Shown piece by piece: positions 32,534-39,119 of a stretch of 39,119 bases of DNA. The DNA is from an uncultured bacterium (GTDB lineage: Bacteria > Fidelibacterota > Marinisomatia > Marinisomatales > UBA1611), in contig CAJQGZ010000031.1 in the NCBI GenBank assembly GCA_905478065.1, positions 1 through 39,119 of the forward strand, in the 5' to 3' direction. Positions within the stretch are counted from its first letter, which is position 1. Each line of letters begins with the position of its first letter. Both the position numbers and the translations under genes were made by a program. The notes below the pieces were generated by a model that saw only the letters and a list, made by a program, of their open reading frames with translations, was not told the DNA's origin and searched no databases.

Positions 32534-33922
32534 GTGGATACAAATAAAAAAGCAGAAACTAAATCCTCTTCAATGGATGATATAGACAAAAAAATCCATG
32601 CAAATCAAGTTTTGTATGACCAACTTCATCAATCTTTGGTAGACGAGATTGTATCAAAAGATGATAAAGATCAAAAAAAAGAAAAGTCAAGAAAGCCTGA
32701 TGTTTCTAGCACAAGAAATTTTCTTTTAAAACTTTCTGATTATTATCAATCTAATGAATTATTTAGATATGCTCTTTGGGGGTTTGTAGCTGTATTCTTT
32801 TCAACTACAATCTTAACTATTATTGAATATCCCCTTTTTAGTAGTAGTGTAAAAGGTGATGTCGGTGATGGATTTATGTTTGGTGGGGACGAACCCAATT
32901 GGGTTGACACATTTTTTCATACTTTTTGGTGGGCTGTTGTAACATTTACTACCGTAGGCTACGGCGATGTAAGCCCAGAAACACATTTAGGTAAATTTTT
33001 AACGATAATAATAATGATTTTAAATCTAGGCATTGTGACAATGCTTACAGGTGCTGTTTCCTCTGTTTTGGTTGCAGCTAGATTAAAAGGAGATGATACA
33101 TTGGACGAAACTAAGTTTTATGGACATTTAATTATCGCAGGTTGGAATCCTGCGGTTCAGTCAGCATTAAGACTCATTGAGGCTAACGAAGATTCAGCTT
33201 CAGTTGTCATTCTTATAAATGAAACTGAAGAAGAAATAATCAAGCGAGCTGTTTCTGGGTTCGATCGATTAGATATAACTCATTTATCAGAAAATTTTAC
33301 TCAAGAGGGTGTACTCAAAAAAGCTTTTATTGAAGAATGCGGAACTTTTATGATTGTTCCAGATGAATCTGGTCTGCTTCCAAATGAAAAACCTGATGAA
33401 GATAAAACGGTTCTAACTGCGCTCACGGCTAAATCAATCTTAGAAGATATCCAAGTTGTAGCATATATTTTAGATGAAGAATATATATCGCACTTGCATA
33501 GAGCTAATGTAAATGAAATTGTTTTTCCTGATGAGCATATACCGCATATGTTAGCGAAACATGTCACAGACCCAGGTGTGCCTCAATTATTTGATGAGTT
33601 GATTACCCAAGAAAAGCAGGATAAGGGTATTCAAGTTGTTTCTATACCTAAAGGTTTAGTAGGGCTCACTCATAATAAAGTTTCAGCATATTATAAATTT
33701 AAACATAAGTGGCTACTGGTTGGCTATGCAATTAAAAAAGCTGGATTTAGCTTGGAAGAACAAATGGGAGAAAGCGGCAGTCCTATTATTCGTGATATGA
33801 TTAAAGAACAATTAGATGGTGCTGGAATAAAATTATCAAGCGATGAACACGTCATAGTTGAGATTAATCCAGACGATGAATACATTATTGATGGTAAACA
33901 TAAAGCTTTGGTATTGAGGTAA
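32534..33922 (+). CDS. Two-TM potassium channel with RCK (TrkA-N) domain
   Basis: The GTG at 32534 is the longest supported start and an ATG at codon 14 is an alternative. A charged N-terminal region (1-70) precedes TM1 (about 78-98), a pore helix, the K+ filter TTVGYGD (139-145) and TM2 (about 154-180). From about residue 196 (YGHLIIAGWN) a Rossmann-like RCK domain follows, and a TrkA-C-like end can be seen from about 330. The layout is that of MthK/Kch-type channels gated by ligand at the RCK ring. The stop is 4 bases from the cNMP-fold gene, whose ribosome-binding site (GAGG) is inside this gene. Confidence 0.9.
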   Translation: MDTNKKAETKSSSMDDIDKKIHANQVLYDQLHQSLVDEIVSKDDKDQKKEKSRKPDVSSTRNFLLKLSDYYQSNELFRYALWGFVAVFFSTTILTIIEYPLFSSSVKGDVGDGFMFGGDEPNWVDTFFHTFWWAVVTFTTVGYGDVSPETHLGKFLTIIIMILNLGIVTMLTGAVSSVLVAARLKGDDTLDETKFYGHLIIAGWNPAVQSALRLIEANEDSASVVILINETEEEIIKRAVSGFDRLDITHLSENFTQEGVLKKAFIEECGTFMIVPDESGLLPNEKPDEDKTVLTALTAKSILEDIQVVAYILDEEYISHLHRANVNEIVFPDEHIPHMLAKHVTDPGVPQLFDELITQEKQDKGIQVVSIPKGLVGLTHNKVSAYYKFKHKWLLVGYAIKKAGFSLEEQMGESGSPIIRDMIKEQLDGAGIKLSSDEHVIVEINPDDEYIIDGKHKALVLR

Positions 33923-33926
33923 AATT

Positions 33927-34490
33927 ATGGGCGTCAACGCAAAACAAATTCAAAAAATAAACTATTTTAATAAAGTTTCGGAAGACCTTTGCTCTGAAAT
34001 TGCTAAGGTAGTAAAACAAAAAAAATGTTCTCCAAAAACCACTCTACTTAAGGAGGGTGAAACTGGAGATACTATGTTACTTATTTTCCAAGGTCAAGTT
34101 GAGGTATCTAAGAACATGATGGTTAAAACTTCTAGTGGATTTACTATGTCGACTAAATCTATTATTAGATTAGAAACTACAGACCCATCGCCTGCAAATA
34201 AGCCGATAACCGAACCTACAGTTTCAGTTGTAAAAGCGCCTGCTTTTGGGATAGGGGAATTTTCTCTTGTCCTTGATGATGCTAAAAGGACATCACATGT
34301 TACTGCTATGACAGACATTGATTATGGGATTATTAAATTAGAAGATTTTTCGAATATAGTAGATAAACACCCATCTATAGGTGGTTCTGTTTATTTTGAA
34401 GTCGCAAAATCAGCTGTAAATAATTTAGCCACTGCAACCCAGGATATATCTAATCTCACGCAAGCGTTCTTTTTTGCGTTAGCTAAATAA
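33927..34490 (+). CDS. Stand-alone cyclic-nucleotide-binding-fold protein
   Basis: The 187-residue protein reads as a cNMP-binding beta-roll. KTTLLKEGETGDTMLLIFQGQVEVSKN (about residues 38-64) matches the E-G-x-x-x-D-x-x-x-x-I-x-x-G-x-V pattern. FGIGEFSLVLDDAKRTSHVTA (about 110-130) resembles the phosphate-binding cassette with its Arg. An insertion of about 35 residues (70-105) separates them. No DNA-binding or kinase domain is present, so it should act as a regulatory subunit. Its start is 4 bases after the K+ channel, which makes the channel the obvious partner. Ligand binding is not proven. Confidence 0.75.
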   Translation: MGVNAKQIQKINYFNKVSEDLCSEIAKVVKQKKCSPKTTLLKEGETGDTMLLIFQGQVEVSKNMMVKTSSGFTMSTKSIIRLETTDPSPANKPITEPTVSVVKAPAFGIGEFSLVLDDAKRTSHVTAMTDIDYGIIKLEDFSNIVDKHPSIGGSVYFEVAKSAVNNLATATQDISNLTQAFFFALAK

Positions 34491-37227: not shown

Positions 37228-37902
37228 TTAGCAGTATACTCTTTCCATACCAGATAAAAAGTTATTTAGCGAAGATAAAGCTAAATCAATAGATTCTAGA
37301 GCTTCTTCTTTTTTCAAATCAGTATCACAAACCTCACCCAACAATTCTTTAATTATTTGTCTATGAATAATATCAGCAGACTTGTGCACTTCAAAAAACT
37401 TTAGTGTTTCATCGCCTTCTACTGCGCCATAATATCTTTTTAATCCATCAATTTTATTTTCAGCTATTTCAGGTATCATAGACTCATAGCAATAAAGCGC
37501 ACTAAACCCTTTATGATACTTCTCGTCTTTCGATAATTTCATAAAATTAGTTACTAGCTCTTCAGTCTCTTTGATAGCAGTGGTCTTTTTTACGCTATCC
37601 CTATCTTTGCCCATGCCTTCAGCAAAACGCATCCATAATTCAGGATGGTTTTCTTCACCACGTTCTTCATCAATAAGATTTTCAAGAATCTCTTGTCTTA
37701 CATTAATATTATCACAATTTGAATGAATTGATGATAGGTATCTTGGGAAGGCAGCTACATGCTTAAAATATTGAGCTGCATATTCTTGGATCACAGATTT
37801 TTTTAATTCTCCAGCATTCCAGGCCTTATAGAATGAATGATTAAGCAGGTGATGTTTTTCAATTTTTCTTTCAATCGTATTTAGAAAGTCAGATTTGTTC
37901 AT
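37228..37902 (-). CDS. CADD-like heme-oxygenase-fold metalloprotein (candidate para-aminobenzoate synthase)
   Basis: The 224-residue all-helical protein belongs to the PqqC/TenA-like group and matches Chlamydia CADD closely in spacing. Metal ligands would be Glu79 and His86 (LIDEERGEENHPELW), Glu140 (YCYESMIPE), and His173, Asp177 and His180 (EVHKSADIIHRQ). Tyr25 (HSFYKAW), Tyr41 and Lys150 fall at the places of CADD Tyr27, Tyr43 and Lys152. In CADD the Tyr is cleaved and a Lys gives its amino group, forming pABA without PabABC. The function here is inferred. It follows the PAS-prenyltransferase gene by 33 bases on the same strand. Confidence 0.85.
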   Translation of the reverse strand: MNKSDFLNTIERKIEKHHLLNHSFYKAWNAGELKKSVIQEYAAQYFKHVAAFPRYLSSIHSNCDNINVRQEILENLIDEERGEENHPELWMRFAEGMGKDRDSVKKTTAIKETEELVTNFMKLSKDEKYHKGFSALYCYESMIPEIAENKIDGLKRYYGAVEGDETLKFFEVHKSADIIHRQIIKELLGEVCDTDLKKEEALESIDLALSSLNNFLSGMERVYC

Positions 37903-37935: not shown

Positions 37936-39119
37936 TTAACCAAGCCATATTCCGGCACAGAAAAATAACCCCGTTAAGAAGTGTAATCCAATAGTTCCTG
38001 CATTAGCTGGTTGTAATAATCTGTTATCATAATGTTTGTAGAGGGTTTTTATTGTGAAAATACTGTATACAGATGTTATTAGTGAAATTAGTGATAGTGT
38101 AGGAAATGTAGTTGGTCTTGTCCAAGCTAAAGCTATGATGCTAACAAATGCACCAACAACAAGTGCGACATAGCCTATTCTAGCTTTTTCTGGTCCAAAA
38201 ACTACTACCAGATTATTTTTCCCTGTTGCTTTATCACCATCATGATCTGGGAATTGATTTACAAAAACGATTGCTGCAACTAATAGTCCAATCGGAATTC
38301 CAGCAAGAATAGCATCGTTTATGTGTATCATTTCTCCGCCAGTCTGGACTAAAAAACTCCCTGCAACCATTAATGGTCCAAAGTTTAGCCCAATCAATAG
38401 CTCGCCCAGACCTTTTCGTGATGCAAATCGGAATGGTGGTGCAGTATAAAAGAAACCTGATAAAAATCCAATTATTCCTAAGTAAAGAATGCTAATCCCA
38501 GCTTTATATATAAGTGGTATTCCTATTAAGGCACTAAGAGCAAATGTTACTATAGCAACGTTCAGCATGCCTTTGGGTGTTATCAGACCCATTTGAATGC
38601 TTCTGCTTCCACCAGAAAACGGAATCATATAATTATAGTTTGCTTCATCAGTACCACTAATATGATCATAATAGTCATTAGATGTATTGGTACCAATATG
38701 TAGAAAAAAACCTCCTAACATTGTCAGTGTAAAATAAAACCAATCAATATCTACGAATTTACTTGCGACTGCAGCTCCTAATAATATGGGAACGATAGTT
38801 GCTGTCAAAAATGGTAACCTCATTATTACCATCCAACTAAATAGTTTTGTTGCAAAACTTATTTTTGGTCGAACATCCGCTGGCGTTTTATCATGAAGAG
38901 GAGATGTAACACCGCAATATCCAATATGGTTTCCACCACTGTCTTTTGTTGGCGTTATTTTTATTTTACATGGCATTTCATGACCATCTTTGTGTAGAAA
39001 AACTGTGTTTCCTTCCCAGGCGCCTTTTTCAACTGATTCAGCTAACCAATTTACAACATGACCCAAAACTATTTGACCAGCACTAAAATCACTAACGCGG
39101 CCTTTACCAATTATTTCAT
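37936..39119 (-). CDS. PAS domain fused to MenA/UbiA-type membrane prenyltransferase (N-terminus beyond window)
   Basis: The frame is open to the window edge; a TTG at 39066 is only an internal codon, since sequence upstream (EIIGKGRVSDFSAGQIVLGH) continues a PAS fold. The PAS end is clear: NTVFLHKDGHEMPCKIKITP, then GNHIGYCGVTSPL. About 30 residues later a UbiA-superfamily enzyme starts (WMVIMRLPFLTATIVPILLG) with about eight to nine TM helices. It has the first Asp motif NDYYDHISGTD, PFSGGSRSIQMGLIT, and the second motif FPDHDGDKATGKNNLVVVFG. MenA prenylates dihydroxynaphthoate. The fusion and the CADD-like neighbour are unusual, so the aromatic substrate is open. Confidence 0.85.
   Translation of the reverse strand, partial: EIIGKGRVSDFSAGQIVLGHVVNWLAESVEKGAWEGNTVFLHKDGHEMPCKIKITPTKDSGGNHIGYCGVTSPLHDKTPADVRPKISFATKLFSWMVIMRLPFLTATIVPILLGAAVASKFVDIDWFYFTLTMLGGFFLHIGTNTSNDYYDHISGTDEANYNYMIPFSGGSRSIQMGLITPKGMLNVAIVTFALSALIGIPLIYKAGISILYLGIIGFLSGFFYTAPPFRFASRKGLGELLIGLNFGPLMVAGSFLVQTGGEMIHINDAILAGIPIGLLVAAIVFVNQFPDHDGDKATGKNNLVVVFGPEKARIGYVALVVGAFVSIIALAWTRPTTFPTLSLISLITSVYSIFTIKTLYKHYDNRLLQPANAGTIGLHFLTGLFFCAGIWLG

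Follow-up and report, generated by a model that had tools for sequence, protein, structure and literature searches.

Members of the UbiA family furnish quinones, hemes, chlorophylls, and vitamins E and K with their lipid tails, and both the N terminus and the active site of these enzymes face the cytosol. The human member UBIAD1 re-prenylates menadione; it carries no fused PAS domain, and its regulation involves a separate protein. The best-known control of quinone output acts before prenylation, at MenD; in Lactococcus, it is largely MenD, under feedback from DHNA, that was found to determine the output of DHNA (PMC12421875). The locus described here joins a PAS domain covalently to an enzyme of the UbiA family. 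No description joining these two domains was found in the literature searched, in agreement with the original prediction, which had regarded PAS control as unfamiliar for this family. The combination is new, and the enzyme family itself is known.

Architecture of the fusion protein

The window, i.e., the whole stretch of DNA that was analyzed (39,119 nucleotides), is an entire contig from a genome of 2.1 Mb with 82% completeness. An open reading frame of 393 residues with zero stops runs on its minus strand, and the 5' end of this frame is open because the contig ends there. The frame, its domains, and its downstream neighbor are located as follows.

37936 to 39117, minus strand: PAS-UbiA fusion open reading frame, 5'-truncated at the contig end, covering residues 34 to 426 of a protein of ∼426 residues
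38893 to 39117, minus strand: PAS domain, residues 34 to 108 of 108 (F-alpha helix and strands G, H, and I), from Pfam, AlphaFold2 secondary structure, and Foldseek
39046 to 39060, minus strand: PAS His53 and Trp57 (full-length numbering), invariant in 34/34 sequences
38914 to 38916, minus strand: PAS Cys101, on strand I, present in 33/34 sequences, codon checked
38035 to 38796, minus strand: UbiA prenyltransferase domain (MenA/UBIAD1-like), from Pfam, NCBIfam, sequence comparison with solved structures, and Foldseek
38665 to 38688, minus strand: first catalytic motif, NTSNDYYD (N177 to D184), with N177, N180, D181, and D184 invariant in 34 sequences
38233 to 38259, minus strand: second catalytic motif, NQFPDHDGD (N320 to D328), with N320, D324, and D328 invariant in 34 sequences
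37228 to 37902, minus strand: CADD-family gene, 33 bp downstream of PAS-UbiA (TIGR04305, 263.9 bits; cutoff, 200)

The upstream extension that the original prediction had called for was provided by relatives. The 33 N-terminal residues absent from the window were taken from these (MSKDLKSVITCDLDGKIETFSSGAQDMFGYTED..., 97% identical), and homologues gave a full-length protein of ∼426 to 427 residues, with the PAS domain at 1 to 108, a short linker, and UbiA at 113 to 426. A Pfam search of the window's frame placed UbiA (PF01040) at residues 108 to 361 with 110.2 bits (cutoff, 34.2) and a PAS_9 fragment at residues 25 to 68 with 19.2 bits, under the cutoff of 27 since the contig end truncates the domain. 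In the full-length homologue L098, PAS_9 reached 34.4 bits, above its cutoff. It had also been stated that the cofactor-binding part of the PAS domain lies mostly outside the window; this proved wrong, since what falls outside is limited to strands A and B and the initial short helices, and ∼70% of the domain, including F-alpha and strands G, H, and I, is within. The AlphaFold2 model comprised a complete PAS domain followed by a helical membrane domain (pLDDT, 83; pTM, 0.78), and the UbiA half and the PAS half found separate matches in Foldseek.

The PAS-UbiA fusion is genuine, with one complete PAS domain and one complete UbiA prenyltransferase. The single frame originally described was found again in more than 35 independent assemblies, and a chance reading frame, a frameshift, or a chimera was therefore rejected; a frameshift or stop between the domains was looked for in other assemblies, and none was seen. 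That an assembly chimera, frameshift, or mis-annotation lies behind the fusion is scarcely credible, as the window's own copy is cut by the contig end but the uninterrupted frame recurs in dozens of other assemblies, with identities as low as 36%.

The predicted complete prenyltransferase with both Asp motifs was borne out, all catalytic Asp and Asn residues being invariant. Judging from these intact motifs, which say nothing on regulation by the PAS domain, the prenyltransferase is probably active. The best NCBIfam matches were MenA models (NF004751, 159.7 bits), with no model reaching its cutoff; the MenA equivalog TIGR00751 was missed by one bit (101.1 versus 102.15), and the other MenA models were far below their cutoffs. 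UBIAD1 (8djk) was the best solved structure by sequence (E value, 1.1e-11) and the top Foldseek match by fold, and further Foldseek matches of the UbiA half were DGGGP synthase and the Archaeoglobus UbiA homolog 4tq4.

For the PAS half, Foldseek matches were 3lyx (TM score, 0.82 to 0.83 of target), NifL (2gj3), and Aer (8dik). The NifL PAS domain was the best match having a known cofactor. Among pairs with UbiA parts less than 50% identical, mean identity was 54.9% for PAS and 39.5% for UbiA. Amino acid change in the PAS domain was small, and only a bound on its dN/dS could be obtained because synonymous sites were saturated. These comparisons indicate that the PAS domain is under strong purifying selection across genera and families. 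Together with the invariant residues and the single origin described below, this constraint argues against a decaying or accidental fusion.

Several of the conserved residues are candidates for a sensory role. Strands A and I adjoin in the sheet of PAS domains, and Cys11 on strand A (34/34 sequences; its codon is beyond the contig end) and Cys101 on strand I (33/34, lost in L028) constitute a candidate ArcB-like pair. The invariant His53 lies in the predicted F-alpha helix (residues 47 to 64) and is a candidate axial His as in heme PAS domains of the FixL/DosP type. In the alignment with NifL, whose FAD contacts we take to be Glu70, Trp87, and Asn102, Trp87 corresponded to the invariant Trp57 and the other two positions corresponded to Arg40 and Phe73. 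A LOV photoreceptor was rejected: the photoactive Cys is missing, and the stretch aligned to the NCRFLQ-type motif reads GKGRVSDFS. Light sensing of the LOV type, light having been among the inputs first suggested, can thus be set aside. No decisive cofactor signature was found among the PAS residues examined, and a thiol or bound-cofactor redox sensor is plausible from Cys11, His53, Trp57, and the near-invariant Cys101.

Distribution, origin, and same-site replacement

PAS-UbiA was found in 38 of the 101 nearest genomes; the absence from close relatives that had been named beforehand as counting against the fusion was therefore not seen. Across Fidelibacterota (Marinimicrobia, SAR406), at least 57 of 245 genomes carried the fusion, some of them in another family-level group of the class (f20), and homologues came mostly from genomes of this phylum. 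A plasmid search for PAS-UbiA returned only PAS-less MenA-like matches. Three MAGs labeled Nitrospina, Chloroflexi, and Gammaproteobacteria (L039, L040, and L046) carried PAS-UbiA 72 to 87% identical to that of the window and are probably mislabeled or misbinned Marinimicrobia contigs.

In a tree of the UbiA parts, PAS-UbiA formed one clade (support, 100/93) with one origin. A second fusion, PNPOx-UbiA, formed a separate clade (100/99), and the MenA of Men operons in the same phylum was far from PAS-UbiA, on a long, fully supported branch. The tree indicates a single fusion event, in which the PAS domain was joined to UbiA in the common ancestor of a large clade within Marinimicrobia.

Up to three recurrent UbiA proteins were found per genome. 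One, beside CtaA and SCO genes (L111), is heme O synthase by context; a second, of ∼280 residues, resembles the archaeal-lipid type, a putative assignment; and the third is variable in type. Among the 101 genomes, this variable slot was represented by PAS-UbiA in 38, PNPOx-UbiA in 25, and the Men pathway in 18, while 21 belonged to none of the three classes, in part through incompleteness. PAS-UbiA never co-occurred with the Men pathway or with PNPOx-UbiA (0 overlaps; class lists compiled by hand), for which the Fisher P value of 8e-13 treats as independent genomes that are related. The classes were mixed inside families f1, f5, f7, and f8, and exclusion held even within one genus (G036 versus G048).

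Pfam confirmed the PNPOx_N domain in four members of the PNPOx-UbiA class, and the remaining members were placed by the length of the frame and the position of the match; loci of the class include the following.

PNPOx-UbiA loci: L103:6575-8035, L105:1836-3419, L107:5933-7756, L108:7789-9297, L109:9140-10648, L137:4038-5648

This fusion usually adjoins ubiE and belongs to Marinimicrobia other than those with PAS-UbiA, the small-genome family f15 among them; a similar one is carried by an archaeal MAG (L077). Its AlphaFold2 model was of moderate confidence (pLDDT, 71). We know of no description of a PNPOx-UbiA fusion.

The two fusions occupy the same chromosomal site. In G048, PNPOx-UbiA and ubiE stand directly before carA, and in G036, of the same genus (g15), PAS-UbiA, with no ubiE beside it, lies between the orthologous genes, with flanks 74 to 89% identical. 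In family f7, the order in G050 is glycosyltransferase, PNPOx-UbiA, ubiE, carA, an ABC pair, a LolA-like gene, and carB; G063 has this order with PAS-UbiA instead and ubiE missing, and the flanks are 54 to 70% identical within the family. The UbiA parts of the two forms are ∼33% identical and fall in separate clades, which argues for replacement of the whole enzyme and against an exchange of the N-terminal domain alone. G050 also has an extra UbiA-like gene between the LolA-like gene and carB, near its PNPOx-UbiA locus (L108:13628-14761).

PAS-UbiA had no conserved neighbors beyond a few genera, and inference from an operon was rejected, CADD and DUF3050 being local. The CADD neighbor was kept in seven loci, from the window's genus and one other locus only, and is outside the conserved unit. 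The CADD family is related to a Chlamydia enzyme linked to p-aminobenzoate, and as yeast uses p-aminobenzoate as a precursor of a quinone headgroup, the pairing with PAS-UbiA may not be idle. In the window's genus, PAS-UbiA is flanked on its opposite side by a DUF3050 gene (L093:11617-12399) that looks heme-oxygenase-like, again a putative assignment. Elsewhere in the window, a potassium-channel/TrkA-N gene is followed by a cyclic-nucleotide-binding-like gene (32534 to 34490), possibly a two-gene regulated channel.

Quinone context of the PAS-UbiA genomes

Complex I (NuoH), which implies a need for quinone, was present in 36/38 genomes with PAS-UbiA. By profile search, on which all the gene absences rest, MqnA/MqnD (PF02621) was found in 0/101 genomes and the futalosine route was rejected. 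True MenB/MenD was found only in the Men class and in 0/38 PAS-UbiA genomes. UbiE was present in four of these 38, and the class is therefore not perfectly uniform. UbiD was nearly absent (5/101 genomes and 1/38 with PAS-UbiA), and UbiD-dependent benzoquinone routes were rejected. The mean completeness of 80% is too high for missing genes to account for the pathway absences. The PAS-UbiA genomes thus lacked every known quinone headgroup pathway tested (Men and Mqn, with UbiE and UbiD rare), and the prenyl acceptor would come from an undescribed route or from salvage. The literature searched held nothing on Marinimicrobia quinones, and the description of the first cultured member of the phylum does not mention quinones.

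The surroundings of PAS-less homologues point to a quinone role: one is inside a complex I operon (L057), and others adjoin an NDH-2-like flavoprotein (L073), UbiE (L067), or genes for a geranylgeranyl reductase and a polyprenyl synthase (L054); in a Thorarchaeota MAG (L061), a separate PNPOx gene adjoins the homologue. In G007 and G090, ubiE was found with a 4HBT thioesterase gene (MenI-like) but without menB or menD (L138:3523-4679 and L142:117-1276), and these pairs are possible remnants of a lost Men operon.

Explanations of the fusion and comparison with known systems

On balance, PAS-UbiA is likely to be a membrane-embedded MenA/UBIAD1-type aromatic prenyltransferase that fills the quinone slot of the genome and was fused once to a PAS domain, which would be cytosolic and would gate prenyl transfer. 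The regulatory element, tuning of the prenyltransferase by PAS, is plausible from the sequence data. The PAS domain would sit in the cytosol next to the catalytic cap. As the redox state of the cell or the quinone pool changes, it could alter how fast prenyl groups are transferred or how the acceptor is used; the input would come either from the Cys11/Cys101 pair or from a cofactor bound close to His53/Trp57. Genomes without MenD would need another control point; the fusion could supply one, and control at the prenyltransferase would then replace MenD control. A broader proposal is more tentative: in a large SAR406 clade, the headgroup may be obtained by an undescribed route or salvage, and final prenylation may be gated by a PAS domain that reads the redox state of the quinone pool and so stands in for feedback at MenD.

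A salvage prenyltransferase, possible but doubtful, would re-prenylate an imported preformed headgroup (naphthoate, menadione-like, or benzoquinone) that the PAS domain binds or senses. It would account for genomes in which MenB/MenD and MqnA/D are missing, and UbiE/UbiD nearly always so, yet complex I is kept; UBIAD1 as the closest solved relative and the possible Men-operon remnants point the same way, and bacteria dependent on exogenous DHNA are known. However, no gene for transport or uptake was identified, the pattern would be identical under an unknown de novo route, and salvage would be surprising in so abundant and free-living a group.

Somewhat less probable is a PAS domain that serves as a dimerization, folding, or docking module, e.g., with a prenyl diphosphate synthase or a respiratory complex, rather than as a sensor. 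Its conservation above that of the catalytic domain is unusual for a sensor, and a different N-terminal domain on enzymes of the same slot is as expected for a common docking role. The invariant residues, however, extend beyond surface and core positions to reactive or ligand-type side chains (Cys11, His53, and Trp57), and a redox role for both PAS and PNPOx fits the flavin binding typical of PNPOx domains.

More improbable again is a role as homogentisate prenyltransferase, with HppD feeding a pathway of the tocopherol/plastoquinone type. Although HppD was present in 28/38 PAS-UbiA genomes, which fits near-universal presence given completeness (P = 0.19), it lies within a tyrosine-degradation cluster (aminotransferase, HppD, FAH-like, and homogentisate dioxygenase-like genes), and the route was rejected. 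HppD was also found in 25/63 genomes without PAS-UbiA and was missing from three PAS-UbiA genomes that are 91 to 92% complete (G003, G068, and G084), and the best family matches were to MenA, with no homogentisate prenyltransferase family among the matches listed.

If the favored explanation of a PAS-gated prenyltransferase holds, the covalent PAS domain would be a direct posttranslational control point on the enzyme. The unexpected part is the genomic setting, as no known origin was found for the quinone of the PAS-UbiA genomes: these genomes of an abundant uncultured ocean phylum have complex I and PAS-UbiA, yet their quinone could not be traced to the headgroup routes tested.

Of the known systems, MenA (1,4-dihydroxy-2-naphthoate prenyltransferase) gave the best model matches and shares with PAS-UbiA the UbiA fold and both Asp motifs, whereas PAS-UbiA has an N-terminal PAS domain, occurs in genomes without MenB/MenD, and reached no model cutoff. 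UBIAD1, the human menadione prenyltransferase (8djk), is of naphthoquinone type and was the best match by both sequence and fold; its structure was solved in complex with the partner protein HMGCR. In PNPOx-UbiA, too, a MenA-like UbiA enzyme carries a small domain at its N terminus, and the gene lies at the same site upstream of carA, but the domain is a PNPOx split barrel, ubiE usually adjoins, and the UbiA clade is separate. NifL, Aer, and ArcB, redox sensors that work through FAD or thiols, have a PAS fold like that of the fusion, but their PAS domains control kinases, NifA, or chemotaxis and not a membrane biosynthetic enzyme. Of the three presumed FAD-contact residues of the NifL PAS domain, only the Trp is kept in PAS-UbiA. 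In ArcB, redox is reported to be sensed through two PAS cysteines (PMC11620690), and PAS-UbiA likewise has two conserved Cys residues, on strands A and I.
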